A DNA stretch of 45,788 nucleotides from Verrucomicrobiota bacterium. Lineage in GTDB: Bacteria; Verrucomicrobiota; Verrucomicrobiia; Palsa-1439. The DNA lies in assembly GCA_016871575.1 (NCBI GenBank), contig VHCW01000032.1, forward strand, positions 1 to 45,788. Direction: 5' to 3'. Within the stretch, counting starts at the first letter, position 1; each line of letters starts with the position of its first letter. Shown one piece after another: positions 30,351-45,788 of the stretch. A model generated the notes under the pieces. The model worked only from the letters and a program-made list of their open reading frames with translations. It was not told the DNA's origin and did no database searches. The translations under genes were made by a program, and so were the position numbers.

Positions 30351-30423
30351 GCCGGCGTAGCTCAATCGGCAGAGCATCTGATTTGTAATCAGAAGGTTGT
30401 CGGTTCAAGTCCGACCGTCGGCT
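30351..30423 (+). tRNA. tRNA-Thr (anticodon TGT)
   Basis: A 73-base cloverleaf: acceptor stem GCCGGCG paired with CGTCGGC (one G-U pair), D-arm GCTC/GAGC, anticodon stem TCTGA/TCAGA with loop TTTGTAA giving anticodon TGT (threonine), variable loop of five, and T-arm GTCGG-TTCAAGT-CCGAC. The discriminator is T and the CCA end is not encoded. It lies between the toxin-antitoxin pair and the end of the glycan operon. Confidence 0.95.
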
Positions 30424-30436
30424 CCCGTTTTGTATC

Positions 30437-32404
30437 CTACCGTCCCAGCGGCGCATGGATGATTCCGCCAAGATCGGAATCGGCTGTTGTGAAGCGTACT
30501 TGCAGCCGGACCACATAGAGCGGAACAAGGAGGGGAGCGGAATCGGCGAGCACGGGAACTTTGTCCAGCAGTTCGATCCGGAATCGGGACGAAACTTGTT
30601 TCTCGTGAGGCGAAACGTAGTTGGGGATTTCGTCCGACGCCACCAGCCAGTACACCACGCCTTGCGGGGCGGTCCTCAACAGTTCGGACACGCGTTTGAC
30701 AAATACAGGCGCCGAATCCTTGCCCAAACTGCACAGCGTGTAATGTCCCACTCGCAGGCGGGTGGACTGGAGCAATGTGGTGGCGCGACGTCCGATCACA
30801 ATGGCGTTGGAAGGAATTTGCCGTTCAATTCGGGTGGCGGCATATCGCGCCGAGTGGCGGCGCGTCAACAGGTCGGGGCGCGCGCGAAGCCAGGCGGGAT
30901 TGAAGATCACGGCCGCATAAAACACCAATGCCGCGCACAGGTACCAGTGTCTCCACCGGATCCATCGCCGTCCGGCAAGGATGAGGATGAAGGCCGTCAG
31001 CACGGTGCACTGGATCAGGATCTGGTTGGGGATGAACCAGGATTGGCGCCCCATGGCGGCGTATCCGTAATTGCAGGCGAACAGCCAACCCGCGCCGATT
31101 CCCAGCGCGCCGATCATGAACCAGTGACGGAATCCCCCGCGCCATCCGAGCCGTGTCACCGCCACTGCAATCAGCAGTGCGATGCTGATCAACAGCACCG
31201 GCCAAGTCACCACCCACGCATACCCGTCCGGGAGGATGTAGGCGTTCGAGAAGAAATTCTTGAGACCGTCTTTTGGCAGATGGACCGGTCTCCAATAGAC
31301 CGCAAACAGAACAACAAGGGCGACGAGCGTCGCGCCTGCAAATACACGGGGCCGCGCATCAGCGCGGGGCAACAGCCGTCGGGCGTACACCAGCAGCAGC
31401 GGCGCGAAAAACAACAGCGGCACAAAATACCGGCATGGATTCCGTGGTTGCAGAGCCAAAATGCCGACATACACGAACAATCCCGCGCACATCATGATGC
31501 GCGGCGTGAGCAGGCGGCCGGTGCGCTGCCACAGGATCGCGAGATACCAGAGCGGCAAGATCATCGCCCAGAAAATGAACGGCCCCAGGTCCGCGGCGGT
31601 GTAGGCCCGCGGAAAAACGGCAAGCGCCTTGAGCATCTCCATCACGTTGAAGGTCAATATCCCTTCGACGTGCGGATAATCCATCGGGTTCAACCCCTCC
31701 AGGATGGCTTGATTCAGTTGCCATTTCACCCAGAGCTGGCCGGTGGCGTATAGCACGACGAACCCGGCAACGAAACAAACGGCGCGCCACAGTCTCCGTT
31801 TCGGACGCGTGAGGATTGCCGCGAAGAGGAACGGCACAAACACGATAGCGGTCATCTTGGCCAGTACCGCAAACGCAGCCGCGACTCCCGCCAGCGTGGC
31901 GCGCGCCAGCGAGGGTTTGCGCAGCAGCCACCAACCCGCCACAATTCCAGTGGCGAACAGCACGTCGGACGATCCCCACCGTTCATACGTCAGGCTCGCC
32001 GGGTTGCAGGAGGCAACCAGCGTCACGGCTCCCGCCAGCCACGGCGCGGTCGTGCGGCTGGCCATGTGGTAGATCAGCAGCCAGGCGATCACGGCGGCCA
32101 GCATGCTCGGCCAGCGCGCGGCCGCGATACGCAGACCGCAAATCTCGTAACTGATGGCGCTCAGCAGGTGCATGGCCGGCGCATAGGTCAACGTGCTGGG
32201 ATACCCCATCTCCGAATCCAGCCATTTCCCCGTCAGGAACATCAACCGTCCGCCGCCGGTGTATTCGCCTTCATCGGTGGAAAACGTGCCGTATCCCCAG
32301 ATGCCCCAATTGCCGGGATCGCACTCGATCCACGGGAACCGCAGGGCGCAGAGAACGACGGCCAACGCGATGCCGATCAACCAGCGTTGCCGGCGCGTGC
32401 TCAT
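30437..32404 (-). CDS. membrane glycosyltransferase, GT39/ArnT-like (GT-C fold)
   Basis: A 655-residue protein with about twelve membrane helices, of the GT-C superfamily that transfers sugars from lipid carriers on the periplasmic side. The first helix (about residues 6-23) is followed by the acidic catalytic loop TFSTDEGEYTGGG near residue 45, as in PMT and ArnT enzymes; a long soluble C-terminal part (about 560-655) follows the last helices. The ATG at 32404 overlaps the DegT aminotransferase stop by four bases (ATGA); the open frame upstream has no membrane character. It is the last gene of the minus-strand glycan operon and ends 13 bases from the tRNA gene. The substrate may be the amino sugar made by the preceding aminotransferase. 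Confidence 0.8.
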   Translation of the reverse strand: MSTRRQRWLIGIALAVVLCALRFPWIECDPGNWGIWGYGTFSTDEGEYTGGGRLMFLTGKWLDSEMGYPSTLTYAPAMHLLSAISYEICGLRIAAARWPSMLAAVIAWLLIYHMASRTTAPWLAGAVTLVASCNPASLTYERWGSSDVLFATGIVAGWWLLRKPSLARATLAGVAAAFAVLAKMTAIVFVPFLFAAILTRPKRRLWRAVCFVAGFVVLYATGQLWVKWQLNQAILEGLNPMDYPHVEGILTFNVMEMLKALAVFPRAYTAADLGPFIFWAMILPLWYLAILWQRTGRLLTPRIMMCAGLFVYVGILALQPRNPCRYFVPLLFFAPLLLVYARRLLPRADARPRVFAGATLVALVVLFAVYWRPVHLPKDGLKNFFSNAYILPDGYAWVVTWPVLLISIALLIAVAVTRLGWRGGFRHWFMIGALGIGAGWLFACNYGYAAMGRQSWFIPNQILIQCTVLTAFILILAGRRWIRWRHWYLCAALVFYAAVIFNPAWLRARPDLLTRRHSARYAATRIERQIPSNAIVIGRRATTLLQSTRLRVGHYTLCSLGKDSAPVFVKRVSELLRTAPQGVVYWLVASDEIPNYVSPHEKQVSSRFRIELLDKVPVLADSAPLLVPLYVVRLQVRFTTADSDLGGIIHAPLGR

Positions 32405-33474
32405 GGCAAACAGACGAGCGATTCGCAGATGGTTTGGATCTCGGCGCCGCTCAGTTCCGGCCACAACGGCAAGGAGAGAATCTCGCCGACCGCCTGCTCG
32501 GTGACGGGCAACGGGACGTCTTGGCGATACGCCGGTTGACGGTGGACCGGTTGCGGATAGTGCACGGCAGTCGCAATGCCGTCGCCCGCGAGCCGGTCGC
32601 GGAGCCGGTCGCGTTGCGGGTGGCGGATGACGTATTGGTGGTACACGCAGCTTCGATGGGGGAACGATGGCGGCGGCGTAAGGCCGGTGCCGCGCAACGC
32701 GGTCGTGTACGCGTTGGCAATGCTCCACCGGCGATCATTGTCGGCGGCCAAGTAACGGAGGCGCACGCGCAGAACGGCGGCCTGAAGTTCGTCCAGCCGG
32801 CTGTTCCAGCCGTGCTCGGCGCTGACGAATCGTTCCCGCCAGCCGTACTGGCGCAACGAACGAAGCCGTTCGGCCAGCGCAGCGTCCGCCGTCACGACAG
32901 CACCGGCGTCGCCGAGCGCGCCGAGGTTTTTGGTCGGATAAAAACTGAACGCGCCGAGTGTTCCCCACGCGCCGACGGCGTGTCCGTCGCATCGCGCGCC
33001 GTGCGCCTGGGCGCAGTCCTCGACAATGGGAATCCCGGCGGCGCAAATCTCCGGCAGCCGGGCGGCTTGGCCGTAGAGATGGACGGGGACGATGGCGCGC
33101 GTGCGGGGCGTGATCGCGCCCGTCAGTTGCGACGGGTCGAGCGTCAGATCGTCAGGACAGACATCCACAAACACGGGGCGCGCACCGGTTCCGACGATGG
33201 CGGTGACGGTGGCCGTGGCGGTGAGTGAGACGGTGATGACCTCGTCGCCGGGACCGATGTCCAACGCTTTGAGGGCGAGCCAGAGCGCCTCGGTGCCGTT
33301 GGCAACGGCAACGGCGTGGGGTGCCCCGACAAAATCCGCGAACTCTCGTTCCAACGCCTCGACTTCGGGACCGAGGATGTAACGACCGGAATCGAGGACG
33401 CGGGCGATGGCGGCGTCAATTTCCGCGCGGTGGGCGCGAACAAAGGCGCCGGGGTTGGCGGCGGGAATGTTCAC
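32401..33474 (-). CDS. DegT/DnrJ/EryC1-family sugar aminotransferase
   Basis: A 357-residue PLP enzyme that transaminates a nucleotide-linked keto-sugar. The PLP lysine is K182 in FYPTKNLGALGDAG, with the ring-stacking segment VEDCAQAHGA (about 151-160) and the phosphate-binding ANGTEAL near 59. The start is a GTG at 33474 that overlaps the epimerase stop (GTGA); a longer in-frame ATG at 33552 would put 26 residues of the neighbour's frame in front. Product is an amino sugar for the glycan assembled by the operon. It is translationally coupled to the genes on both sides. Confidence 0.9.
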   Translation of the reverse strand: MNIPAANPGAFVRAHRAEIDAAIARVLDSGRYILGPEVEALEREFADFVGAPHAVAVANGTEALWLALKALDIGPGDEVITVSLTATATVTAIVGTGARPVFVDVCPDDLTLDPSQLTGAITPRTRAIVPVHLYGQAARLPEICAAGIPIVEDCAQAHGARCDGHAVGAWGTLGAFSFYPTKNLGALGDAGAVVTADAALAERLRSLRQYGWRERFVSAEHGWNSRLDELQAAVLRVRLRYLAADNDRRWSIANAYTTALRGTGLTPPPSFPHRSCVYHQYVIRHPQRDRLRDRLAGDGIATAVHYPQPVHRQPAYRQDVPLPVTEQAVGEILSLPLWPELSGAEIQTICESLVCLP

Positions 33475-34466
33475 CAGTAGTGGGCATAGTTGGCGCGATA
33501 GTAGGCGAGGGTTTGCGACAGACCATCGCGCAGGGTGACGGTTGGTTGCCATCCGATGGTGCGTTGGATGCGGTTGAAATTGGCGTAGTAGTCGCCGACG
33601 TCAATGGCTTTGCGGTCGGGTGGAAACGGCACGAGCCGGAACGCGCCGTTGCCGTTCACCTCGATGAGCAATCGCGCAAGATTCTTCAGGGAGACGACTT
33701 CGTGGCTGCCGAGGTTGTAGGTCTGGCCTTCGGTTTTCGGCGAGAGCGCGGCCAGGAGGATGGCGTTCAGGGCGTCGTCCACGTAATTGAGGTCGCGGGC
33801 TTGGTTGCCGTCGCCATAGACTTCGATTTCGGCGCCCTCGATGACTTGCCGCAGCCAGAGACCGAGGAACGTCTGGCGCGCGTCGCGCACGCGCATTCGC
33901 GGGCCGTAGGTGTTGGTCAGCCGCAACGAGGTGGCGCGCAGCCCGTAGGTGCGATGGTACAGCGTGTGGTACCAACTGCCGGCGAGTTTGTGGATGCCGT
34001 TGACGTCCACGGGCGAGAGCGGATGATCTTCGTCCACGGGCAACCGGACAGGCCGTCCATACACCTGGCGGGTGCAGGTGTACACGATGCGGACGCCGGG
34101 GTTTTGTTTGCGGCAGGCTTCGAGCAGGAAAAGCTGGCTCCGGCAGTTGATTTCGAGGTCGGTGAACGGGTTCTCCATCGAATCGAGATGGCTGACCTGC
34201 CCCGCGAGATTGAAAATGAAGTGCTGGTCCTTGACGAGGTGGTTGATGCCGTGCTCGTCGCGCATGTCGCCGATGTTGATGTGGATGCGGTCTTCGTAGC
34301 CGGCAAGGTTGAAGAGGTTGCCGCCGTACTCGGGAATCAAGGAATCAAGCACCGTGACGCGGGCGTCGAGATCGGCAAGCCGGCGGGCGAGATTGCTGCC
34401 GATGAAACCGAGGCCGCCGGTGATGAGAACACGGGTGCCGGCAAATTGCGTGAACGGTTCAGACAT
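33471..34466 (-). CDS. NAD-dependent epimerase/dehydratase-like SDR
   Basis: A 331-residue extended SDR acting on a nucleotide sugar. The NAD-binding GGLGFIG is at residues 17-23. In place of the usual YxxxK catalytic pair it reads NGIHK, i.e. Asn where Tyr is expected, and the usual catalytic Ser/Thr region reads CTRQVYG. The same wording (NGI-K-AG-WYH) is, as far as I recall, shared by a subfamily, so it is probably not a mutation but a changed mechanism. TNTYGPRMR and NYVDDALNAI are otherwise typical. The ATG at 34466 follows AGGAG by seven bases; an ATG two codons earlier is too close. It overlaps the GT2 gene by eight bases. Confidence 0.82.
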   Translation of the reverse strand: MSEPFTQFAGTRVLITGGLGFIGSNLARRLADLDARVTVLDSLIPEYGGNLFNLAGYEDRIHINIGDMRDEHGINHLVKDQHFIFNLAGQVSHLDSMENPFTDLEINCRSQLFLLEACRKQNPGVRIVYTCTRQVYGRPVRLPVDEDHPLSPVDVNGIHKLAGSWYHTLYHRTYGLRATSLRLTNTYGPRMRVRDARQTFLGLWLRQVIEGAEIEVYGDGNQARDLNYVDDALNAILLAALSPKTEGQTYNLGSHEVVSLKNLARLLIEVNGNGAFRLVPFPPDRKAIDVGDYYANFNRIQRTIGWQPTVTLRDGLSQTLAYYRANYAHYW

Positions 34467-35220
34467 TGGCATTCTCCTGTAATGAGGGTGAACCGGTGGG
34501 TTCCGTCTGGAGATGGGCGCGGCGGATGACAAGCTTGTACCAGAGTTGCATCAGGTGCACGGCAACCCGGCAAAGCCGGCGAAACTGGAAGAACTGGCTT
34601 TTCCCGTACACGCGGTGCCAGTGGCACACTGGCACCTCGACAAACCGGCAACCGGCGTCCTGGAATTTCTTCACCATCTCCAGGCAGATGACGCCCGTGT
34701 CCGATTCCAGCGGGACGGACTCCAGTACCTGTCGCCGGATGAGCCGGAAATCGCAGTCCACGTCGCGCAACCGAAACCCAAACGCCAGGCGGACGGCATA
34801 GTGGTACAACCGGCCAATGATGGCCCGGTGGAACGGGTCGCTGCGGAAGATTTTGTAGCCGTTGACAACATCCACGTTCTCGCGCACGGCGCGCACCAAC
34901 CGGAGCAATTCACGCGGGTTGTACTGGCCGTCGCCGTCGGTGTAGAAGACCCATTCCTTGCGGGCGTTCGCGAAGCCGGTTCGCAGCGCCGCGCCGTAGC
35001 CGCGGTTGCGGTCGTGATGGATGACGCGCAGGCGCGGATGGCGGTACGCCAACTCGTTGAGGATTTTGGCCGTGTGGTCGGTGCTGCCGTCGTTGACGAC
35101 AAGGACTTCGTAATTGGGCGTGATTTGCGAAAGAGTCTGCATGGCCGTGATGACGAGATCGCCGATGGTGCCGGCGTCGTTGTAGGCCGGGAAAAAGGCG
35201 GTGATGGAGTGCGGGATCAT
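34459..35220 (-). CDS. glycosyltransferase family 2 (DPM1/DPG-like)
   Basis: A 253-residue cytoplasmic GT-A enzyme. The N-terminus SITAFFPAYNDAGTIG and VVNDGSTDHTAKIL form the nucleotide-binding part, and the metal-binding DGDGQYNP (about residue 100) corresponds to the DxD motif. The arrangement, without membrane helices, resembles dolichyl-phosphate mannose or undecaprenyl-phosphate sugar synthases, which would charge a lipid carrier for the GT-C enzyme at the end of the operon. The ATG at 35220 overlaps the methyltransferase stop (ATGA). The frame is open upstream but is the shadow of the methyltransferase gene. Confidence 0.88.
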   Translation of the reverse strand: MIPHSITAFFPAYNDAGTIGDLVITAMQTLSQITPNYEVLVVNDGSTDHTAKILNELAYRHPRLRVIHHDRNRGYGAALRTGFANARKEWVFYTDGDGQYNPRELLRLVRAVRENVDVVNGYKIFRSDPFHRAIIGRLYHYAVRLAFGFRLRDVDCDFRLIRRQVLESVPLESDTGVICLEMVKKFQDAGCRFVEVPVCHWHRVYGKSQFFQFRRLCRVAVHLMQLWYKLVIRRAHLQTEPTGSPSLQENANV

Positions 35221-35954
35221 GCGGCCTCCTTTTGGGCGAGCGCGAGCACGCTGAGGCCAAACGGCAGCGGCAGGCGCCGCAACCAGACGCCCTCGGCGCG
35301 CAGGCACCACTCCAGCAGCCGGTTCAACCATGGCGGCAACGGACGAACATCGCTGGCCGGTTCGGAGTTGGTGGAGCGTTGCAACAATCGCCAGATGATG
35401 GCGAACGGGAACAGCAGCGCGTTGGCATAGCTCACGCGGACCGGCCGCAGCCCGGCGGCCTGCAATTTGGCGGACACTTCCTTGCAGGTGTAGCGGTGCT
35501 GGGTGTGGACGGCCAGGTCGTGCGCGCCCCGCAGCCAGTTGTAGGCCGGCAGGCGAACAAACAACCATCCCTTCGGTTGCAGCACGCGGGCCAACTCGCG
35601 AAAGGCATCCCAATCGCTGCCGACTCTGCTGTGACACAACACGTCGAACGTTGTCACGATGCTGAATCGGGCCGCGGCAAAGGGCAGCGATTTCACGTCC
35701 GCCTGCACAAGCCACGGGCAGCCGTGTTGCGCCGCCAACTGCAACGCCAGCGGATGCATGTCCACCCCGCAGGCGCGCCCCAATTGCGTCAGCCACTCCA
35801 GATTGCCGCCGGTTCCGCAGCCGGCGTCGAGCACGATTCCATGCGCTGGTGCCGGCAATCGTTTGAGCCAGTCGGCGGCGATGGCGGTCATGCCGGTGTA
35901 CCACCAGTGCGTGTGTTCCGAGCGGGCCATGTTATGGAATTCGGATGTGTTCAA
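35217..35954 (-). CDS. class I SAM-dependent methyltransferase
   Basis: A 245-residue methyltransferase. Motif I LDAGCGTGGNLEWL (about residues 42-55) binds SAM, with the acidic GVDMHP of strand two and a QADVKSLPF at motif III. The N-terminal EFHNMARSEHTHWWY is typical of sugar or small-metabolite methyltransferases in glycan clusters and supports the TTG start at 35954, four bases after the preceding stop; an internal ATG at 35930 would remove it. The C-terminal 60 residues contain a hydrophobic stretch (ALLFPFAIIWRLL) that may touch the membrane. The acceptor is unknown, probably the sugar of the same operon. Confidence 0.85.
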   Translation of the reverse strand: MNTSEFHNMARSEHTHWWYTGMTAIAADWLKRLPAPAHGIVLDAGCGTGGNLEWLTQLGRACGVDMHPLALQLAAQHGCPWLVQADVKSLPFAAARFSIVTTFDVLCHSRVGSDWDAFRELARVLQPKGWLFVRLPAYNWLRGAHDLAVHTQHRYTCKEVSAKLQAAGLRPVRVSYANALLFPFAIIWRLLQRSTNSEPASDVRPLPPWLNRLLEWCLRAEGVWLRRLPLPFGLSVLALAQKEAA

Positions 35955-35958
35955 ATGC

Positions 35959-37836
35959 TCACCGAAGGTTCAAGTTCCGGGGGTTGCTTTCGGACGGGAT
36001 CATCGCGGCGATCTGTTGGACGACCTGCTGGATCTCCGGGTTTGCCGGCGACAGGGCGGCGGCGATCTCATTATGTTTTCGGGCGGCGTCGTAGTCGCGG
36101 CGTTTGGCGTGGAGTTCCGCGAGGCAAAGATGCGCCCGCACATGCGTGGGGCGGATGGCGACCGCTTGCTTGAACGATTCGATGCTGCTGTCAAACTCGC
36201 CAAGCCCGACGTACGACACTCCCATGTTGAAATGCAGCTCCTCGTAGAATTGCGCGTAACGAAGGCCGATCTGGGACGTGACAAGGGCTTCCTGGTGTTT
36301 GCCGGCGCGGTTGAGCAGCGTGGCGAGGTTCTGATAGGCCCTGACCGACGACGGCTCAACCTGAAGCGCCTTTCGGAAACAGGCGATGCCCTCTTCCGGT
36401 TTCCCGTGCTCACAGTAGGCCACGCCGAGATTGATCAGGGGACGCGACTTGTTCGGGCTTTTGGCGGCCACATCATTCCACATGGTAATTTCGGAGCGCC
36501 ACACTTCGTTCCGCGCCACCGTGGCAACGCTCAAGGCGGCAATCCAACCGGCGAGGATCACCGGCACGACAAATCCAAAGCCCCGCACACCGGCCAAGCG
36601 GGTCCGCAGCAGATCAACGCCGCAAACCATCGCCGCGAACGCGCCGATGGTGGCGAGGTAGCAGCGGTGTTCGCACAGCAGATCGGGCAGGGGAACCACG
36701 CTGGAGGAGATCGCCAGCGTCGTGAAGTACCAGATCACGGAAACGAAGATCAACGAAACGCGCACGTCCGTCCGCCGCCGGAAATACCAGAGCCAGGAAC
36801 CGCCAACGAGCGCGAGGATGATCGCGATGGAGATCAAGACGCGCGCTTGCAGCAAGGAGGTCGAAAGCTCGTACTCCCAATCCAGGTTGAGTCCCGCTGG
36901 GAAGATGATCAGCCGCAGATAGGCCAGCACCACGCTCAGTTGGGTCAGGGCGTAATGGAACGGCGGATAGTTGTACGGGTTGACGATGTTGACCGCGCCG
37001 ACCAAGCTCAAACTGCCGCCGCTTTGGGCGTGCGAGGTCAAGGCAAGGAGCAGGGGGATGACCGGCAGACAGAGCAACTGCGGCAATGCGCGTTTGCCGG
37101 CGATTTTCAGCGGCGTGCCCCTCACCAGCCAGTCCAGCGCCACCAGCAGGAAGGGCGCGGTGAACACTTCCTCCTTGGACAACATCCCGAGCAGCAATGC
37201 GGCGACCGAGCCGGTCTTCAGCAGCCATCGGTTTTTTTGATGGGTTGCGGCGATGGCCAGAAAGTGCGTCAGGATGGTCAACAGATAGAAAAAAGCTCCC
37301 AGTGACGTGAACCGTTGCACAATGTAGGTGACCGACTCGGTCTGGAGCGGATGCGCCAAAAACAACAACGCGGAACCGAGCGCGATGAATCCCGCTGAGA
37401 ATTCCGTGAGATTGCCGCGCTTCGGCGATGTGCGAAGGAGATAAAAGAGAACCTGGAACAACAGGACGGCGTTCAGGCAATGGATGGCGATGTTGACCGC
37501 CCGGTAGCCGCGCGGACGCATTCCGTCAGCGGCGTAGTTGAGGTGGAACGTGAGGTAGGAGACCGGCCGCAAAATGAAGTTGGTGGAAAGATCGGGGTCC
37601 AAGCCCATGTTCTTGCTCGCCGTGGCGAACGTTGAGAAATCCCGCATGAACGCAAAACTGCGGGCATCTTTTACCAGGGGATTGTCAACCAGATAGATAT
37701 GGTCATCGAAGACAAAGGGAAACGACAAGGTGTATCCATACAGCAATGCGCCGCCTCCCAAAAGGATCGCGCAGGCAATCCAACGGAATCGGGAGATGGT
37801 CGTCCGGGCACCGGCGATGTCGCCACATGTTCCCAT
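35959..37836 (-). CDS. membrane glycosyltransferase-like protein with TPR tail
   Basis: A 625-residue protein with an N-terminal GT-C-like membrane region of about ten helices (residues 15-440) and four TPR repeats (about 455-595; e.g. PEEGIACFRKALQVEPSS, FDSSIESFKQAVAIRPTH). The first periplasmic loop holds FVFDDHIYLVDN, the acidic pair used by protein O-mannosyltransferases and the TMTC family. It may glycosylate secreted proteins or move sugars from a lipid carrier, with the TPR repeats binding the partner. It is the first gene of the six-gene glycan set. A palindrome identical in its arms to one before the response regulator lies 39-56 bases upstream. Confidence 0.8.
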   Translation of the reverse strand: MGTCGDIAGARTTISRFRWIACAILLGGGALLYGYTLSFPFVFDDHIYLVDNPLVKDARSFAFMRDFSTFATASKNMGLDPDLSTNFILRPVSYLTFHLNYAADGMRPRGYRAVNIAIHCLNAVLLFQVLFYLLRTSPKRGNLTEFSAGFIALGSALLFLAHPLQTESVTYIVQRFTSLGAFFYLLTILTHFLAIAATHQKNRWLLKTGSVAALLLGMLSKEEVFTAPFLLVALDWLVRGTPLKIAGKRALPQLLCLPVIPLLLALTSHAQSGGSLSLVGAVNIVNPYNYPPFHYALTQLSVVLAYLRLIIFPAGLNLDWEYELSTSLLQARVLISIAIILALVGGSWLWYFRRRTDVRVSLIFVSVIWYFTTLAISSSVVPLPDLLCEHRCYLATIGAFAAMVCGVDLLRTRLAGVRGFGFVVPVILAGWIAALSVATVARNEVWRSEITMWNDVAAKSPNKSRPLINLGVAYCEHGKPEEGIACFRKALQVEPSSVRAYQNLATLLNRAGKHQEALVTSQIGLRYAQFYEELHFNMGVSYVGLGEFDSSIESFKQAVAIRPTHVRAHLCLAELHAKRRDYDAARKHNEIAAALSPANPEIQQVVQQIAAMIPSESNPRNLNLR

Positions 37837-37874
37837 ACCGGCAACACCATATGGATTCAGGATGGGGTCAGCCA

Positions 37875-37892
37875 GTCGGTAAAATTACCGAC
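37875..37892 (-). promoter_or_regulatory. 18-bp dyad before the glycan operon (copy 1)
   Basis: GTCGGTA-AAAT-TACCGAC on the plus strand, a perfect 7-4-7 dyad in the 68-base gap between the response-regulator stop and the TPR gene. The flanks CA before and AAC after are shared with the second copy at 38580, so 19 fixed bases match. If CATATG at 37853-37848 is the -10 box, the dyad is centred at about -42, the classical position for LuxR/NarL-type activators. The -10 is weak, so this placement is an inference. Confidence 0.6.
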
Positions 37893-37904
37893 AACCATGT
37901 GCTG

Positions 37905-38552
37905 CTACAGCGTCTTTTGTCCGAAATAACGCGCGACCGCCTGGGCGCGGGAACGGACGTGGAGTTTGTGGTAGATCCGCTCGATGTGAGTGCGCACCGT
38001 CGCGTAACTGGAGCCGGTGCGGTCGGCAATCTCCTTGTAGAGATAACCTTGCGCGAGGAAGTCGAGCACTTCCTGTTCGCGCGGGGACAGCGTGTCCACC
38101 TCCTGGGCGGAAGGCCGGCTTTTTTGGAAGAGTTGGACGACCTTGCGGGCGATGCCGCTGGTCATCGGCGCGCCGCCGCCATAGACATCGTGGATGGCGT
38201 CAATCAGTTGCGCGGCGCGCACGGGTTTGACGAGGTAACCGACCGCGCCCGCTGACAACGCGTCGAAAATGGAGTCGGCATCCTTATAGACCGTCAGCAT
38301 CAGCACCTGCAATTGCACGGGCTGCTCACAGAGCCGGCGCACGCATTCCACGCCGCTCATGCCGGGAAGGTCAATGTCCATCAAGACCACTCGCGGAGGC
38401 TGCTGCGGGATTCCCACCAGCGCTGCCTCGGCCGAGCCGTATTCGCCCACACAATGGCAGCCGTCGTCGCGCTCGATGATGTTGGCGAGCGTGCCGCGGA
38501 CCTCCGGGTCGTCTTCCACAATGGCAACGGTGATGGGCATTTCTTTTTTCAC
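37905..38552 (-). CDS. NarL/FixJ-type response regulator
   Basis: A 215-residue two-component regulator. The receiver holds the phosphoacceptor D59 in VLMDIDLPG and the conserved Lys in GYLVKPV. The C-terminal GerE-type helix-turn-helix starts LSPREQEVLDFLAQG (about residue 150) and continues KEIADRTGSSYATVRTHIERI. It starts with GTG overlapping the kinase stop (GTGA), with an ATG four codons later as alternative. Its partner is the adjacent kinase. The twin palindromes at 38580 and 37875 have the 18-bp size typical of LuxR/NarL family sites and are likely its targets. Confidence 0.93.
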   Translation of the reverse strand: MKKEMPITVAIVEDDPEVRGTLANIIERDDGCHCVGEYGSAEAALVGIPQQPPRVVLMDIDLPGMSGVECVRRLCEQPVQLQVLMLTVYKDADSIFDALSAGAVGYLVKPVRAAQLIDAIHDVYGGGAPMTSGIARKVVQLFQKSRPSAQEVDTLSPREQEVLDFLAQGYLYKEIADRTGSSYATVRTHIERIYHKLHVRSRAQAVARYFGQKTL

Positions 38553-41110
38553 CGTGCATCCTCCATCCCGGTTGCGTCAGTCGGTATTGCTACCGACAAC
38601 ACCGTGCGCGAGCCGCCGCCCGGCACATTCTCCTGGAGGAGACGGCCGCGAACTTCCAGGAGGCGCGCGCGCAGATTCGTCAACCCGTCGCGCCCGGCCT
38701 CCGGCCCCGACACGGCCTCTGCCGGAAACCCGCGTCCATTGTCCCGGATGGCAAGGGTCAATTCCCGTCCGGCGAGCGTCACGGACAGATGGACCTCGGT
38801 GGCGCCGGCGTGCTTGACGGTGTTGTGGAGCACCTCCTTGACGGCGAGGCAGAGGTGATGGCGCATTCCCGATGAGATGGCCAGCGGCGGCGGATCCGGC
38901 GGCAATTCGAGGCGGCATGCCAGGTTGGCCGCCCCCAAAAACTCCTGCGCAAAATCGGCAATGTAGGAAAGCAAGCTCTCCAGCGTGTCGTTGACCGGGT
39001 TGATGGCCCAGACGATTTCGTTCAGCGACTGGATCATCGCGTGTGCCCGGCGGAAGATGCCATCGAGGTGTTCCCGCAACTGGACCGGGTGCGCTTCGTC
39101 TTGATGCGCCAGTTCGCTGAGCATCGCGACTTCCGTCAAGCCGGCGCCGACTTCATCGTGAATGTCGCGCGCGATGCGGGCCCGTTCGCGCTCCAACACG
39201 TTGGCGTGCTCCAGCGCCAGCAACTCCCGCATTCCTCGTCGGCGGTAGTACAGCCTGACAATGACAATGACCAGCGCCAGCGTGGTGATGGTGGCAACCC
39301 AGATAAACCATGCGGTTTCCCAGAAAAACGGCGGCACGATCAGCGTCAGTGGCGGTGTCGGCTCGCTCCACGCGCTATCGCGGTCGCGGGCCATCACGCG
39401 GAACCGGTACGTGCCGGCCGCCAACCTCGAATAACGCACCGACCGGTCCGTCGAGGCGCGAGACCAGTCCGTGTCGTGACCTTCCAACTGGAACTTGAAA
39501 TGGGCGCGTTCCGGCGCCGTGAATACCGGCGCCGTGAAAAAGATCTCCACCTCGCGCATTCCCATCGGCAACCGCAGGTCGCCGCCCCGCCACGGCATCA
39601 GCCCGTCATTGGCGTGGATCTCCTCCACGTACACTCGCGGCGGATCGGGCGGGCCGGGAATCTTTTTCGGATCCACCACGACGATGCCGTCCATCGTGGG
39701 AAACCACAACCGTCCGCAAACCGTTTTTGCCGCCCGCGCGCCGAGCCGTCCCGTGCATTCCTCGTCGGCCATGCCGGCCTCCAATCCCAACTGGCGCGCC
39801 GCCATGACCGTCTTACGGCCTGCGATGATCTCCTCAAACTCGCTCTTTCGCACCCGCATCAGGCCGCGCCGCGTGCCGATCCACAAGTCGCCGGCGTCGT
39901 CTTCCAGAATCTGCAGGATGACGTCGTCGGCCAGGCCGTTGGCCGTCGTAAACCGGTGGCGCTCCGTCCCGCGCCAGCGCGCCAAGCCGCGGGTTGTGCC
40001 GATCCACAACACGCCTGCCGAATCCTCGTGCAACACAAGGATCGCTCCATCCGGCAGGCCGTCTTTCTGTTGGAAACGTTCCACCCGATTCTCAGGCCGG
40101 AAACAAACCAGCCCGAAATCCTGATACGCCACCCACACAGCGCCCGTCCGGTCCTCCAACAGCGAATGCACCATGTCCAACGGCTTTTCGGCCGACTTCA
40201 TTTCACCCACGCGATAACTGACCGGCACCAATGCGCCCGCGTCGTTCACTTGCATCAACCCTCTCCATGTTCCCACCCAAAGCCGTCCGTTGCGGTCCTC
40301 CAAGAGCGCGCTGATGCCGCGCCCCATCATGCCGCCGCGCTCCTTCAGCCGCACCAAGGAGACGTCGCCATCCGGTCGCCGTCGCCACAATCCATCACCC
40401 TGTGTGCCGATCCATAACGTGCCGTCGCCTCCTCGCAGCAACGACGATACTGTCGTATCGGCCCGCAACGTTCCCACCTGCGCCGGTCGCAATGCGCCCG
40501 GCGCGCCGGCCAATAGTCCCAACCCCGCCAAACCGACGTGGAAACTGGATGGCGAATCCGCCACGAGAGCCGTCACCGATTCGCTGCTGACCGACAACCC
40601 GGAACGGAGTGTTGTGACTCGCTTGCGCCGCAACCGCAACAGGCCGCCGCTCGTGCCGATCCAGACATTGTTCTCTCGGTCCAGCGCGAAGCACCGAGCA
40701 TCACACGGAAACACGCCATCGCGTGGCGTCAAATCGCTCCACGCGCCCGCCTGCCAGCGATATACCCCGTGCATTGTTCCCACCCAGAGCGTGCCGTCTG
40801 CCTCGGTCATCGTCGCTGTTACACTGTCTGCCGTCACCTCTGTCGGGAGATTGGTGACTGCCGCGCGCGGGGGCTGCGTCAGTTGCCGCGCCGGCATTTT
40901 GGTGAACTGCACGCCATCGAAGCGCAGTAAATAATTGGGCGTGGCACACCACAAATAGCCGTCGCCACCCTGTTCCACCGCAACCACGCGCGACTCCGGT
41001 AAACCATCCTCCACCCCCCACCGACGGATGGTGAAGTTCGACAACAGACTCGTTTCCGCCGCCGCTGTGACGGCGAACAACAAAGCAAACAGTCTGATAA
41101 CGAGGCTCAC
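38549..41110 (-). CDS. propeller-type sensor histidine kinase (two-component regulator propeller, HisKA_3)
   Basis: An 853-residue membrane sensor. After a signal peptide (about residues 1-18) come many repeats of the LWVGTxxGLxR type (about 30-450) that form two beta-propellers, then a Y_Y_Y-like Ig domain (about 500-595), a single membrane helix near 610 (VATITTLALVIVIVRLYY), a HisKA_3 dimerisation box RIARDIHDEVGAG with the phosphoacceptor His near 648, and a HATPase with the ATP-binding DNGRGFP near 793. This layout is like the glycan-sensing hybrid regulators of Bacteroidetes and Verrucomicrobia, but here kinase and regulator are separate. The start is a GTG at 41110, at the predicted transcript start, with no ribosome binding site. 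It senses an unknown extracellular ligand, plausibly a carbohydrate. Confidence 0.9.
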   Translation of the reverse strand: MSLVIRLFALLFAVTAAAETSLLSNFTIRRWGVEDGLPESRVVAVEQGGDGYLWCATPNYLLRFDGVQFTKMPARQLTQPPRAAVTNLPTEVTADSVTATMTEADGTLWVGTMHGVYRWQAGAWSDLTPRDGVFPCDARCFALDRENNVWIGTSGGLLRLRRKRVTTLRSGLSVSSESVTALVADSPSSFHVGLAGLGLLAGAPGALRPAQVGTLRADTTVSSLLRGGDGTLWIGTQGDGLWRRRPDGDVSLVRLKERGGMMGRGISALLEDRNGRLWVGTWRGLMQVNDAGALVPVSYRVGEMKSAEKPLDMVHSLLEDRTGAVWVAYQDFGLVCFRPENRVERFQQKDGLPDGAILVLHEDSAGVLWIGTTRGLARWRGTERHRFTTANGLADDVILQILEDDAGDLWIGTRRGLMRVRKSEFEEIIAGRKTVMAARQLGLEAGMADEECTGRLGARAAKTVCGRLWFPTMDGIVVVDPKKIPGPPDPPRVYVEEIHANDGLMPWRGGDLRLPMGMREVEIFFTAPVFTAPERAHFKFQLEGHDTDWSRASTDRSVRYSRLAAGTYRFRVMARDRDSAWSEPTPPLTLIVPPFFWETAWFIWVATITTLALVIVIVRLYYRRRGMRELLALEHANVLERERARIARDIHDEVGAGLTEVAMLSELAHQDEAHPVQLREHLDGIFRRAHAMIQSLNEIVWAINPVNDTLESLLSYIADFAQEFLGAANLACRLELPPDPPPLAISSGMRHHLCLAVKEVLHNTVKHAGATEVHLSVTLAGRELTLAIRDNGRGFPAEAVSGPEAGRDGLTNLRARLLEVRGRLLQENVPGGGSRTVLSVAIPTDATGMEDAR
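38580..38597 (-). promoter_or_regulatory. 18-bp dyad before the response regulator (copy 2)
   Basis: GTCGGTA-TTGC-TACCGAC on the plus strand, inside the last codons of the kinase gene and about 28 bases before the regulator's GTG. The arms and flanks are identical to copy 1 at 37875. On the minus-strand RNA it would read as a 7-bp hairpin with a GCAA tetraloop, so an RNA role is a second possibility. Confidence 0.6.
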
Positions 41111-41191: not shown

Positions 41192-42187
41192 ATGAAACGA
41201 CTTGGTGTTTGCATTGCGGGACTCGACGGCGCCGTCGCCTCCACCATGGTGGCGGGCGCGGCGTTGTTGCGGCGCGGCTTGGTCCAGCCAATCGGGCTGC
41301 TCTCGGAACCGTACACGCAGTCCCACGCGCTGGCTCGCTGGGACGACATCGTCTTCGCCGGTTGGGATCCGCGCAGTGAGACTATCCACGATGCCGCGCT
41401 GCGCCACGGCGTCATCGGCCCCTGCAAACTCAAACCCGTCCGTCGCGACCTGGCCGCGCTCAAGCCCTGGCCCGCCGGCGCCGACCGGATCGCGTCGTTC
41501 CGTCGCGAACACAAACTTGACACGGTCGTCGTGTTGAACCTCCTGCCCACCGCTCAACCCGCGGCGTCGAAACAGTACGCCCGACTCGCCGCAAAGCACG
41601 GTTGCCCGTTCGTGAACTTTACGCCGAATGACTGTGGCGAGCGCGCGCTCCGCGACGTGCCGTTCGCCGGGCGCGATGGCAAGACGGGACAGACGTGGTT
41701 GAAATCAGTGCTGGCACCGGCGTTGCGGGACCGCGGGTTGCGCGTCGCCGGCTGGTTTTCGACCAACCTGCTCGGCAACGAGGACGGCAAGGTCGTCGGC
41801 CACCCCCAACTCGGCGAGGCGAAGATTCGCGACAAATCGAAACTGCTCGGCGAGATGCTCGGCTACGAGCCGGTTCACACTGTCCGCATCGAGTATTTCC
41901 CGCCGCGCGGCGACACGAAGGAAAGCTGGGATTACATCGAGGCGGAAGGGTTCCTCGGCCAGCCGGTCCAGTTCCGCATCAGCGCCCGGTACCCCGACTC
42001 GATCCTTGCCGCGCCGATGTGCCTTGATCTTTGCCGGTTCATCGCGCTGGCGGCGCGGCGCGGCGAGCGCGGCAACCAGGCCTGGCTGAGCCTTTACTTC
42101 AAGGCACCATACGGCGGTCCGCCGCACGATTTCTTCCAGCAGGAACAGGCATTGCGCCGTTATCTGGCCGGCGCGGCATCGTCATGA
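41192..42187 (+). CDS. myo-inositol-1-phosphate synthase family protein
   Basis: A 331-residue NAD-dependent enzyme of the inositol-3-phosphate synthase family, converting glucose 6-phosphate to inositol phosphate. Family stretches in order: a Rossmann-like CIAGLDGAVASTMVAG (residues 7-22), FVNFTPND, FAGRDGKTGQTWLKS (lysine and phosphate-binding region) and STNLLGNEDGKVV, then the C-terminal ARYPDSILAAPMCLDLCRF. It is shorter than most relatives. A TACTCT box ends nine bases before the ATG, again hinting at a very short leader. Its stop overlaps the cysD start (ATGA), an unusual pairing that ties inositol synthesis to sulfate activation. A divergent paralogue with altered substrate cannot be excluded. 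Confidence 0.85.
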   Translation: MKRLGVCIAGLDGAVASTMVAGAALLRRGLVQPIGLLSEPYTQSHALARWDDIVFAGWDPRSETIHDAALRHGVIGPCKLKPVRRDLAALKPWPAGADRIASFRREHKLDTVVVLNLLPTAQPAASKQYARLAAKHGCPFVNFTPNDCGERALRDVPFAGRDGKTGQTWLKSVLAPALRDRGLRVAGWFSTNLLGNEDGKVVGHPQLGEAKIRDKSKLLGEMLGYEPVHTVRIEYFPPRGDTKESWDYIEAEGFLGQPVQFRISARYPDSILAAPMCLDLCRFIALAARRGERGNQAWLSLYFKAPYGGPPHDFFQQEQALRRYLAGAASS

Positions 42188-42975
42188 ACCATCTCGACCG
42201 TCTCGAAGAACAGAGCATCTTCATCCTGCGCGAGGCGTTCCACAAGATCGAGCGGCTCGCCATGCTGTGGAGCGCCGGCAAGGACTCGCAGACCATCCTC
42301 TGGCTCGTCCGCAAGGCGTTCTTCGGGCGCGTCCCGTTCCCGGCTGTTTTCATGGAAACCGGTTTCGACATGCCGGAGTTGATCGCCCTGCGCGACCGGC
42401 TCGCGAAGGAGTGGAACCTCAACCTCATCGTCGCCCGCAACAACGTTGAGGGGATGAATCCCTCGAAAGGACGCGTCGTGTGTTGCTCGGCCTTGTTGAA
42501 GGAGAACCTCAAGAAGATCGTCGCCCGTCACAACTTCGGCGGCCTGATCGTCGGCGTCCGTCGCGACGAGGACCCGACCCGCGCGAAGGAGCGGTACTTC
42601 AGCCCGCGCGACGCGCACATGGAGTGGCACGTCGAGGACCAGCCGCCGGAACTCTGGGACCAGTTCAACACCGACCTCGCCGGCAGCGTGCATTTGCGCG
42701 TCCATCCGCTGTTGCATTGGACGGAATCGGACATCTGGGAGTACGCCGAGCGCGAGCAGATTCCGATGGCGCAACTTTACTTCGCCCGCCACGGGAAACG
42801 GCACCGCTCGCTCGGCTGCGTGCCCTGCACGTCGGCGATTGAGTCCGATGCCGACACACCGGCGAAAATCCGCGCCGAACTTCGCGCCACAAAAAAGAGC
42901 GAGCGCAGCGTCCGCGCGCAGGACCAGGAAAGCGAAGACGCCTTCGAGAAGTTGAGACGCGATGGGTATATGTGA
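42184..42975 (+). CDS. cysD: sulfate adenylyltransferase subunit 2 (CysD)
   Basis: A 263-residue ATP pyrophosphatase that forms APS from ATP and sulfate with the GTPase CysN. The PP-loop SAGKDS is at residues 30-35; GFDMPE, GVRRDEDPTRAKERYFSPRD and the C-terminal RYHRSLGC-like RHRSLGCVPC are family marks. Length is close to the usual 300. The ATG at 42184 overlaps the inositol-phosphate synthase stop. Downstream a GxxExxY gene separates it from its partner cysNC; without that insert the two would be about 20 bases apart. Together with the sulfotransferase gene the set looks built for sulfation, not only assimilation, since no APS/PAPS reductase is in the window. Confidence 0.93.
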   Translation: MNHLDRLEEQSIFILREAFHKIERLAMLWSAGKDSQTILWLVRKAFFGRVPFPAVFMETGFDMPELIALRDRLAKEWNLNLIVARNNVEGMNPSKGRVVCCSALLKENLKKIVARHNFGGLIVGVRRDEDPTRAKERYFSPRDAHMEWHVEDQPPELWDQFNTDLAGSVHLRVHPLLHWTESDIWEYAEREQIPMAQLYFARHGKRHRSLGCVPCTSAIESDADTPAKIRAELRATKKSERSVRAQDQESEDAFEKLRRDGYM

Positions 42976-43388
42976 TGATGCAGAGTGAACCACAGAGACA
43001 CAGAGAACACCGGGACGGCAAACATCGGGAACTGACCCAACAGATCATCGGTGCGGCCATTGAAGTGCATCGAGCGATTGGACCGGGCTTGTTGGAATCA
43101 GTGTATGACAGTTGTCTGGCGCACGAGTTGTCATTACGAGGTATCCCCTTCGAGTCGCAGAAGCAGGTGTTGGTGCGCTACAAGGCCGTCCAGTTGGCTT
43201 CGGATTTGCGCGCGGATTTCATTGTGGACGGCAAGGTCATCGTGGAATTGAAGGCGGTGGATGCGCTCCTGCCGGTTCATCGCGCGCAAATCCTGACCTA
43301 CATGAGGCTCGCAACCTGTGACGTTGGCCTTCTCATCAACTTCAACGTGGAGCAACTGACGAAAGGCATCGAACGATTCATCCTCTGA
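42975..43388 (+). CDS. GxxExxY family protein
   Basis: A 137-residue protein of the GxxExxY family (Pfam PF13366-like), named for GLLESVY, here at about residues 33-39. The rest shows a PD-(D/E)XK nuclease-like core: [33 protein letters not shown] and a final [12 protein letters not shown]. Function is not established; a nuclease role is often suspected. Its first codons overlap the cysD stop (a GTG at 42972 is an alternative start), and its N-terminal residues are encoded within the left 19-bp inverted repeat. The whole gene is enclosed by that repeat and its mirror copy at 43392-43410, so it looks like an inserted cassette that captured the cysD stop for translation. Confidence 0.85.
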
Positions 43389-43410
43389 GACCTCTGTGTC
43401 TCTGTGGTTC
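42987..43410. mobile_element. GxxExxY cassette bounded by 19-bp perfect inverted repeats
   Basis: GAACCACAGAGACACAGAG (42987-43005) and its exact reverse complement (43392-43410) enclose the GxxExxY gene. There is no transposase. Cutting the 424 bases out would leave the cysD stop 18 bases from the cysNC start, the spacing of an intact operon. No clear target duplication is seen at the edges. I recall that GxxExxY genes in other genomes often have the same ACAGAGACACAGAG wording at their ends, but this is from memory. Confidence 0.7.
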
Positions 43411-43417
43411 CATCCCC

Positions 43418-45154
43418 ATGCATTCAACCGAACAACTCCGCATCGTCATCGCCGGGCACGTGGACCACGGCAAGTCAACGTTCATTGGCCGGCTCTTTCA
43501 CGACACGGGGTCGCTGCCGGAAGGCAAATTCGAGCAGATCCAGGCAGCCTGCGAACGGCGCGGCGTCCCGTTCGAGTGGGCGTTCCTGACCGACGGCCTT
43601 CAGGCCGAGCGCGACCAGAACGTCACCATTGACACGGGGCACATCTGGTTCCGCACGCCGCGCCGGCGTTGCGTTCTCATTGACGCGCCGGGCCACAAGG
43701 AGTTTCTCAAGAACATGGTCACCGGCGCAGCCGGCGCCGAGGCCGCGCTGCTGCTGATTGACGCCGTGGAGGGCGTGCGGGAACAAACCCGCCAGCACGA
43801 GCAGTTGCTCCAGTTGCTCGGCATCAAACAAGTCGTGGTGCTCGTCAACAAAATGGACCGGTGCGGATTCCGTGTCGACGTGTTTCGCCGGCTCGCTGCC
43901 GGGTACCCCGGCAAACTGGTCATCCCGATTTGCGCCAAGACCGGTGACAACATCGCCGCGAAATCCGCCAACATGCCGTGGTACGACGGGCCGACGGCGC
44001 TCGAAGCGCTCGACGGTTTCGAGTCCCCCGAACCGCCTGCGAATTTGCCGCTGCGACTTCCGGTGCAGGACATTTACCGGTTCGACAACCGCCGGATCGT
44101 TGCGGGGCGGATCGAGTCGGGCGCGCTGCGCGTTGGCGACAGGATTCTGTTTTCGCCGCGCCACAAACTCGGCACCGTCCAAAGCCTCGAAGGCCGGCAA
44201 TCGGTCGGCATCACGTTGGCCGAGCAGATTTTCGTCGAGCGCGGCCAGATTATCTCCCACGAGCACGACGCGCCGCTGGTGGCCGACGTGTTCAGCGCGA
44301 AACTGTTCTGGCTCGGCAAACAGAAGCTCGACATTGGCCGGCGACTGAAGCTCAAGCTGGTCACGCAGGAAATCGAGTGCCACATCGAGTCCCTTTCGAA
44401 CATCACGGATGACGGCGCATTTGCCGATGTCGCCATCCGCACGAAGCGTCCCATTGCGTTCGACACGCACGACCGTGTCGCCGCCACGGGCCGGTTTGTC
44501 CTGGTGGACCAGCATCGTGTGTGCGGCGGCGGCATCATCACGAAAGGCGAGAGCATCGAACGCAGCCAGAATGTTTTCTGGACTGAGACCGAGGTTTCAC
44601 GAGCCGACCGCGAGCGGCGCAACAAACACAAAGGCACCGTCGTCTGGCTGACCGGACTTTCGGCGTCGGGCAAATCCACCATCGCCAGCGCGTTGGAACG
44701 CGAGTTGTTTGCGCTGGGAATGCACACCTACGTGCTCGATGGCGACAACATCCGCCACGGCCTCAGCGCCAATCTCGGCTTCCGCCCCGACGATCGCACG
44801 GAAAACATCCGCCGTGTCGGCGAAGTGGCGAAACTGTTTTGCGACGCCGGCATCATCGTCGTGGTGGCATTCATCTCGCCATATCGAGACGACCGGCGAC
44901 TGGCGCGGTCATTGGTGGACGAGGGCGACTTTGTCGAGGTCCATGTCAACGCGTCGCTGGCTGCTTGTGAACGGCGCGACAAGAAGGGGCTGTACCGGAA
45001 AGCGCGCGCCGGTGAGATTGCGAACTTCACCGGCGTCTCCGCGCCGTACGAACCGCCGGAGCACGCGGAGATTGTCCTCGACACCGAACGGCACACGCCG
45101 GCCGAATGCGTCGAGCAAATCCTGCGTCACTTGCAGGACAACGGCCGGATCTAG
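43418..45154 (+). CDS. cysNC: CysN-CysC fusion: sulfate adenylyltransferase GTPase subunit / APS kinase
   Basis: A 578-residue bifunctional enzyme that makes APS with CysD and phosphorylates it to PAPS. The N-terminal GTPase (about residues 1-400) has G1 GHVDHGKS (13-20), G3 DAPGH (89-93) and G4 NKMD (144-147). The wording around switch [11 protein letters not shown] and [12 protein letters not shown], is closer to EF1A than to ordinary CysN (which has TIDVAYRYF), and the region is about 70 residues shorter. The APS kinase domain has its P-loop GLSASGKS at 413-420, then DGDNIRHGL and a FISPYR stretch. The start is 8 bases after the right inverted repeat of the cassette. The stop shares its last base with the MITE-like element. 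Confidence 0.9.
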
Positions 45155-45319
45155 CTCCGTCAAACTTGAATGGAAGGGTGCGTTTGTAGTAACGCACGCA
45201 GCCTCGTGTCGTTTCGGGGCGGAGTGCGGACCGTTTGGCCGGTACGATCTCCCGCAACGCCACTTCGCTTCGCTGCGTGGCTTACTACGAACCACCCTTT
45301 GAATGAGGCTTGACGGAGC
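45154..45319. mobile_element. MITE-like element with terminal inverted repeats
   Basis: The ends GCTCCGTCAA (45154-45163) and TTGACGGAGC (45310-45319) are exact reverse complements. The similarity goes on inward for about 45 bases per arm (for example GTAGTAACGCACGCA against TGCGTGGCTTACTAC). It is 166 bases long, non-coding, and fills the gap between the convergent stop codons of cysNC and the sulfotransferase gene. Its left 70 bases have a diverged copy at 27762-27831. An inner hairpin (45201-45220) is kept by a G-U pair. No transposase is present, so mobility would need one elsewhere. Confidence 0.7.
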
Positions 45320-45320
45320 A

Positions 45321-45788
45321 CTACCGTGAACTGCGGTTCCGGTACAATTCTGGATCCACTGCGCCGGCCATCGCGACCTCGTCGAGCGAGCCGCCAAGGA
45401 ACGCGTTGACACGCACAGCGGCCGCGGCCGGATCAGCGATCACTTGCCGGTACTCCACGTAGAGCGCCGGGATGTTGCGGACCGCGAGCAGTCGCTGGAT
45501 TTGGCGCACTTGCGCCGCAAACGTCCGGGCCAGATGCTCGGGCGTGTCCGCTTGGCCGAGCATTTTCTGTTGCGACGCGATGACTTCGTCGAGATTGCGT
45601 TGCATGAAGATGACGCGGTAACGGCACTCGTTCGATGACGGCAAGGCGCGGAGCAGTTGCGCGACGATCTTGACCACCTTGCCTTTTGCCGACGTCAGCC
45701 AACTGTTGTCGGTCGCCAACTGCTTGGCTTTCTCGAACTCGAAGTAGCCGCGCGGATTGTTCTCGTCGGCGGCGCGCGCGCCATCGGT
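45321..45788 (-). CDS. sulfotransferase family protein, 5' part outside the window
   Basis: The C-terminal 155 residues of a PAPS-dependent sulfotransferase; the start lies beyond the right edge. The visible part begins with ENNPRGYFEFEKAKQL and contains DNSWLTSAKGKVVK, RVIFMQRNLDEVIASQQKML and LYVEYRQVIADP, typical of the bacterial sulfotransferase group with the 3'-phosphate-binding R..S motif (RNLDEVIAS). It is convergent with cysNC, which makes its donor PAPS. An internal TTG at 45719 is not the start because the conserved sequence goes on upstream. The acceptor is unknown. Confidence 0.82.
   Translation of the reverse strand, partial: TDGARAADENNPRGYFEFEKAKQLATDNSWLTSAKGKVVKIVAQLLRALPSSNECRYRVIFMQRNLDEVIASQQKMLGQADTPEHLARTFAAQVRQIQRLLAVRNIPALYVEYRQVIADPAAAAVRVNAFLGGSLDEVAMAGAVDPELYRNRSSR

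Follow-up and report, generated by a model that had tools for sequence, protein, structure and literature searches.

A palindromic operator predicted for a NarL-family regulator beside a glycan gene cluster in a Verrucomicrobiota bacterium

Two exact copies of the 18-bp dyad GTCGGTA-N4-TACCGAC are found in a 45,788-nt contig of a Verrucomicrobiota bacterium (VHCW01000032.1, assembly GCA_016871575.1; the whole contig is hereafter called the window), where the genes of a sensor kinase and of a NarL-family response regulator adjoin a glycan operon. Which protein reads these dyads, and which genes do they control? An earlier reading made from the sequence alone (the sequence-only reading) had named the adjacent regulator as the obvious candidate and proposed autoregulation together with control of the glycan operon. 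Our comparative analysis leads us to a similar answer: with a probability of about 0.88, the dyads are operators of the adjacent regulator, which would activate the glycan operon and probably also its own gene. The features on which the argument turns are the following.

37875-37892, - strand reading GTCGGTA-ATTT-TACCGAC: dyad 1 (downstream copy), predicted operator at the glycan operon promoter
38580-38597, - strand reading GTCGGTA-GCAA-TACCGAC: dyad 2 (upstream copy), at the 3' end of the kinase gene, ahead of the regulator gene
38549-41110, - strand: sensor histidine kinase with Pfam Reg_prop beta-propeller, Y_Y_Y, HisKA_3 and HATPase domains
37905-38540, - strand: NarL/FixJ-type response regulator, with a receiver domain (PF00072, 6e-27) and a GerE helix-turn-helix (HTH) domain (PF00196, 3e-15)

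Both dyads were exact at these positions and share, on the + strand, the flanks CA (left) and AAC (right), just as previously described. Dyad 1 occupies the gap that separates the regulator stop (37905) from the ATG of the first glycan gene (37836). Dyad 2 does precede the regulator ATG (38540), as had also been proposed, but it sits inside coding sequence, within the last codons of the kinase gene. The distance from dyad centre to ATG is nearly equal in the two cases, 47.5 nt for dyad 1 and 48.5 nt for dyad 2, the regulator start having been set from the homologue start MSIRVAIVEDD. Kinase, regulator and the whole glycan operon are encoded on the - strand. In the genome to which the window belongs (G000; 5.19 Mb in 257 contigs, class Verrucomicrobiia) no third copy exists at up to 1 mismatch, while composition predicts 0.02 exact copies per genome of this size. 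Dyad counts were restricted to 0-1 mismatch because at 2-3 mismatches the matches are swamped by background (250 in this genome, against 141 for a control pattern).

Covariation of the site with the recognition helix

The HisKA_3 kinase gene adjoins the regulator gene, and the two are syntenic in relatives. Among solved structures, the best sequence match of the regulator is DevR/DosR (3c3w), followed by NarL (PDB 1a04); VraR is matched as well. Its recognition helix is SYATVRTHIERIY. We compared this helix across 106 aligned regulators, taking as key positions those of NarL K188 (DosR K182) and NarL K192. Dyads occur only with regulators having Glu at the K192 position (16 of the 106). Ten of these have Arg at the K188 position (helix SY[AS]T[VIL]RTH[IV]ERIY), and all ten are accompanied by a GTCGGTA dyad (T-type), in eight cases within the locus examined and in two (L052, L057) at a greater distance on that contig. 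The other six have His at this position. Four of them have a GTCGGCA or TCGGCA dyad (C-type) inside the locus, a fifth has the site ATCGGCAGTTTTGCCGAC elsewhere on the same contig, and the sixth has a GTCGGCA dyad with 1 mismatch, so that a C-type dyad is present in 5/6. Neither type was found with the remaining 90 regulators. Residue and base are thus matched throughout, Arg with GTCGGTA in 10/10 and His with GTCGGCA in 5/5; Fisher tests, in which shared ancestry is ignored, give ~3e-17 for dyad presence and 3e-4 for the pairing of R/H with T/C.

On a tree built from the receiver domain, with the HTH left out, 3 T/C changes are needed among the dyad-bearing rows; the residue and the base therefore switched together more than once. 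Furthermore, the residue that switches corresponds in the alignment to NarL K188 and DosR K182, and Lys182 contacts bases in the DosR-DNA complex (PMC4082495). This covariation between a recognition-helix residue and a base of the site is, in our judgement, the strongest evidence that the regulator reads the dyad. Since the palindrome also follows the regulator across distant relatives, the dyads are very probably its DNA sites, and the choice of the adjacent regulator as binder appears well founded.

Another transcription factor, encoded elsewhere and co-inherited, might bind the dyads instead, and a few exact dyads that have no close regulator nearby, such as the one in locus L186 beside a different NarL-type regulator, would suit such a factor. 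It would have to account for a single-residue covariation in the recognition helix that recurs on the tree, and for the tight linkage of the dyad to this regulator gene; we consider it very improbable.

Conservation and targets in relatives

Exact dyads stand beside orthologous kinase-regulator pairs in several Verrucomicrobiota families (G003, G011, G042, UBA695, G132, G208 and others), and in the first four of these genomes one lies between the regulator and the first downstream gene. G003, from another genus, keeps the order kinase, regulator, dyad, membrane protein, methyltransferase, glycosyltransferase of family GT2, epimerase; its regulator is 78% identical to that of the window and is followed immediately on the 3' side by GTCGGTAGTTTTACCGAC, a dyad retained although the first downstream gene is different. 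G011 and G042, from another family, also have the dyad immediately 3' of the regulator, and in G011 a methyltransferase, a GT2, an epimerase and a PMT-like protein are encoded beyond it. In the Spartobacterium UBA695, finally, a dyad occurs at each of the two places, within the 3' end of the kinase gene as well as 3' of the regulator. The expectation of conservation at orthologous loci was therefore borne out in other genera and families.

Is the dyad, on the other hand, scattered over unrelated places? The 385 genomes of the class contain 15 exact copies, 11 of which fall in the 7 genomes in which an Arg/Glu-type regulator turned up; some of the other 378 may carry one as well. The 378 hold 4 exact copies, against 10 for a reversed control pattern, so that where the regulator type was not seen the dyad stays near background. 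Exact dyads in G168, G308, G386 and G277, distant from this regulator, were taken as background; those of G277 and G386 nonetheless have consensus centres (see below). In G277, an exact GTCGGTAAAATTACCGAC lies directly 3' of a different NarL-type regulator gene (L186:5982-6647; 31% identical) and before the next gene, which is the layout of the window but with an unrelated recognition helix and no TAnnnT at +32/+33. G386 carries GTCGGTAAAATTACCGAC and GTCGGCAAAAATACCGAC ~0.5 kb apart (L219:7554-7571 and 8090-8107), with no close regulator in the 15-kb locus that holds them. The C-type pattern, searched over 286 genomes, gave mostly background matches at unrelated positions; these served as the unlinked control set for the spacing and centre tests described below. 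Around regulators of other subclasses, a de novo search for palindromes returned mostly terminator-like repeats and no shared dyad.

The genes next to the dyad vary with lineage. In Chthoniobacteraceae-like genomes it lies upstream of the kinase gene, in the interval before a large divergent gene, or else stands ahead of a similar gene at a distance of several kb; these large genes encode ThuA/DUF7133/cytochrome c proteins. Further sites precede a sialate-type acetylesterase and a GDSL hydrolase gene in UBA695, in G290 a gene pair, PSCyt1/DUF1549/DUF1553 plus DUF1501, and in G289 a gene of glycoside-hydrolase-like type. The target sets are thus glycan synthesis in the window's group and, elsewhere, PVC-type sugar-oxidation cytochromes, esterases and glycosidases. 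Because the same site precedes other genes beyond the nearest relatives, the "glycan regulon" of the sequence-only reading is lineage-specific: it holds for the window's nearest relatives and gives way elsewhere to glycan degradation and PVC-type sugar oxidation. We find it somewhat more probable than the converse that, in this Verrucomicrobiota clade, regulator and operator co-switched more than once (Arg/His at NarL-K188 with one symmetric base pair, T-A/C-G) and that the operator, together with its fixed -10 spacing, moved between gene sets.

Two arrangements were seen in addition. In G289, GTCGGCAGTTTTGCCGAC followed by ~60 bp of nearly identical sequence occurs at L202:165, L204:1501 and L208:111 with different genes downstream; this is one promoter duplicated several times in one genome. 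In G393 (L236:3501) and G292 (L218:9980), some 7 kb of the contig separate the dyad from the regulator gene, and the dyad stands ahead of other genes.

An inverted repeat may also act as an RNA hairpin, for instance as an attenuator, terminator or processing site in a polycistronic mRNA. Indeed, both dyads are situated at gene junctions, their arms could pair into a 7-bp stem closed by a 4-nt loop, and one of the - strand loops is GCAA. However, the arms are invariant except for one base pair, the site covaries with a protein residue, and at other loci (L055, L058) dyads stand ahead of kinase genes and of genes that diverge from them. With no U-tract after the dyads, neither of them called as a terminator and no Rfam match, we rejected an RNA element, the least probable of the alternatives considered here.

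Promoter geometry and the two dyads

The dyad-linked sites share more than their arms. Their palindrome has the consensus GTCGGYA-RWWY-TRCCGAC: the 4 central bases, which played no part in the search, match RWWY in 18/21 linked sites and in 3/31 unlinked ones (p = 3e-8), and dyad 1 conforms. In addition, when the first base after the 18-mer is counted as +10, 11 of the 25 oriented sites have a TAnnnT motif that begins at +32 or +33, and the motif hardly occurs at other positions; an excess of this size was never matched in 20,000 random rotations. Counting each site once, TAnnnT is found at +32/+33 in 12/24 linked sites, including the later-found L237 (at +33), as compared to 1/31 unlinked sites (p = 6e-5). 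Centre and spacing are, beside the covariation, two further independent lines in favour of direct binding by the regulator. In the window, the spacing points to the following element.

37846-37851, - strand: probable -10 element TATGGT, first base at +33 from the dyad 1 centre, assigned from the TAnnnT enrichment at +32/+33

Placing the first T of TAnnnT at -12 sets the dyad centre at about -44, a class II activator position; at the E. coli napF promoter, the NarL site used for activation spans -40 to -49 (PMC4549865). Dyad 1 thus combines a centre within -41 to -45, as counted from the predicted start, with a -10 element and a weak or absent -35. Moreover, no sigma-70-type consensus -35/-10 pair was found between 37600 and 38800, which fits activator dependence. 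The sequence-only reading had centred the dyad at about -42 by taking CATATG as the -10 box. This type of geometry is upheld statistically, while the register was 2 nt off: the recurring box is TATGGT at 37851-37846, which overlaps CATATG. From this box the transcript would start only a few nucleotides before the ATG at 37836.

The following mechanism would account for these observations. The Reg_prop/HisKA_3 kinase would phosphorylate the regulator, which would then dimerise and place one recognition helix on each half-site GTCGGYAR. At dyad 1, a dimer at about -44 would activate a promoter having the -10 element TATGGT and no recognisable -35, so as to drive the glycan operon (37836 to 30437) from an almost leaderless start. 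Dyad 2 would probably serve an activator-dependent promoter of the regulator's own gene (positive autoregulation). Comparative sequence analysis shows that the site is conserved along with the regulator, that a residue of the latter covaries with it, that its distance from the -10 element is fixed and that the palindromes share a consensus; binding, its dependence on phosphorylation, activation over repression and a function of dyad 2 are what we infer.

Could the regulator bind the dyads and repress, perhaps by keeping polymerase off a promoter that would otherwise be active? Its dimer would extend from about -53 to -36 and might obstruct the -35 region as well; at frdA, NarL acts as a repressor through a 7-2-7 site close to the start (PMC4549865). 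Against repression stand the lack of a consensus promoter, which is what an activator-dependent promoter would show, and the fixed dyad-TAnnnT spacing, which is a requirement of class II activation. Repression is, in our opinion, improbable.

Several observations weigh against the dyads being operators of the kind proposed. The centre of dyad 2, GCAA, falls outside RWWY, and at +33 from it stands CACGGT, one base off TAnnnT. In G003, G011 and G042 no dyad is found ahead of the regulator. Several linked sites have no TAnnnT at +32/+33 (L236 in both orientations, L185), and G001, a genome of the same genus, has neither a close regulator nor a dyad. Finally, the p-values overstate independence, because the sites are phylogenetically related.

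With its deviating centre and -10, dyad 2 might be a coincidence or a relic of the kinase C-terminal motif LSVxxPT, only dyad 1 being functional; the glycan operon would then be controlled without autoregulation. An L-S-V-type C-terminal motif is indeed present in 4/5 aligned kinases, and in G011 and G042 the DNA that encodes it forms no dyad. On the other hand, the dyad of UBA695, which belongs to a different family, occupies the same kinase codons (TTG TCG GTA nnn nTA CCG ACT), and three of the codons needed for it are rare ones in the window (3.8% of Val codons are GTA, 1.2% of Ile codons ATA and 3.3% of Thr codons ACT), which points to selection on the DNA itself; chance is also hard to reconcile with the copy number predicted from composition. 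We regard a role for dyad 1 alone as unlikely, though it is the most serious of the alternatives. Overall, control of the glycan operon through dyad 1 by the adjacent regulator is well supported by the comparative data, while autoregulation through dyad 2 is plausible. It is the weaker half of the original claim, because dyad 2 lies inside the kinase coding sequence and its centre and -10 are off-consensus.

Related systems and neighbouring genes

By every feature tested, the locus is a NarL-family two-component system with its own predicted palindromic operator. The E. coli NarL/NarP heptamer sites (7-2-7; activation of napF and yeaR) are read by the same HTH family and are likewise inverted repeats with an AT-containing centre. 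Here, in contrast, the half-sites read GTCGGYA and point outward from a 4-bp RWWY centre, in place of TACYYMT-N2, the sensor kinase has a Reg_prop propeller, and the targets are glycan genes. The operator of DosR/DevR of M. tuberculosis, the closest solved regulator, is a palindrome of ~18-20 bp with an AT centre, like the dyads described here; half-site sequence, kinase and regulon differ. The lux box of Vibrio fischeri LuxR, ACCTGTA-N6-TACAGGT, is also bound by a GerE-type HTH and is a palindrome overlapping the -35 of an activated promoter, but LuxR is an autoinducer-binding one-component regulator, and the lux box has a wider spacing and different bases. Finally, the hybrid systems of Bacteroides polysaccharide loci also link a Reg_prop propeller and Y_Y_Y periplasmic sensor to glycan genes; they fuse kinase and regulator and use a different HTH (PMC11253607), whereas here the proteins are separate and the HTH is NarL-type.

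Our literature search, of partial coverage, found no description of this operator or regulon, nor of a regulon for any of the numerous pairs of propeller kinase and NarL-type regulator that Verrucomicrobiota encode. We also considered a link to PEP-CTERM regulation; the search gave no matches, and the link was not supported. Systems of this kind are known; the pair of regulator and operator and its natural specificity switch appear to be new. What is unusual is that the switch recurred and that the operator appears to have moved between gene sets. One such kinase-regulator pair now has a predicted operator, promoter geometry and target list, and these predictions are open to in vitro tests for which the host need not be grown. 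The joint change of Arg/His and T-A/C-G is a natural experiment in DNA choice by NarL-type proteins; if true, it would provide a natural, readable specificity code for the family, and the recognition helix offers a route to assigning operators to other members.

The glycan operon consists of the following genes.

35959-37836, - strand: first gene, large integral-membrane protein with C-terminal TPR repeats (Pfam TPR families only)
35217-35954, - strand: S-adenosylmethionine-dependent methyltransferase (PF08241), present also in G003 and G011
34459-35253, - strand: GT2 glycosyltransferase (PF00535), kept in G003 and G011; the true start is slightly inside
33471-34469, - strand: NAD-dependent nucleotide-sugar epimerase/dehydratase (PF01370); nearest NCBIfam dTDP-glucose 4,6-dehydratase, below cut-off
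32401-33462, - strand: DegT/DnrJ/EryC1 sugar aminotransferase (PF01041); NCBIfam ArnB/PseC-like, below cut-off
30437-32467, - strand: GT39/PMT-type membrane glycosyltransferase (PF13231), with a homologue in the G011 cluster

The N-terminal part of the first product is hydrophobic, and its architecture suggests a protein-glycosyltransferase-like enzyme. Upstream of the kinase gene and divergent from it, the interval 42130-45719 encodes CysD, a CysN-CysC fusion and, at the contig end, an open reading frame (45321-45719) that may be a sulfotransferase fragment; this suggests that the nearby glycan is possibly sulfated. No dyad is present between the divergent starts at 41110 and 41192. At the other side of the locus, a tRNA-Thr gene (anticodon TGT) lies at 30351-30425, just before the 3' end of the glycan cluster.

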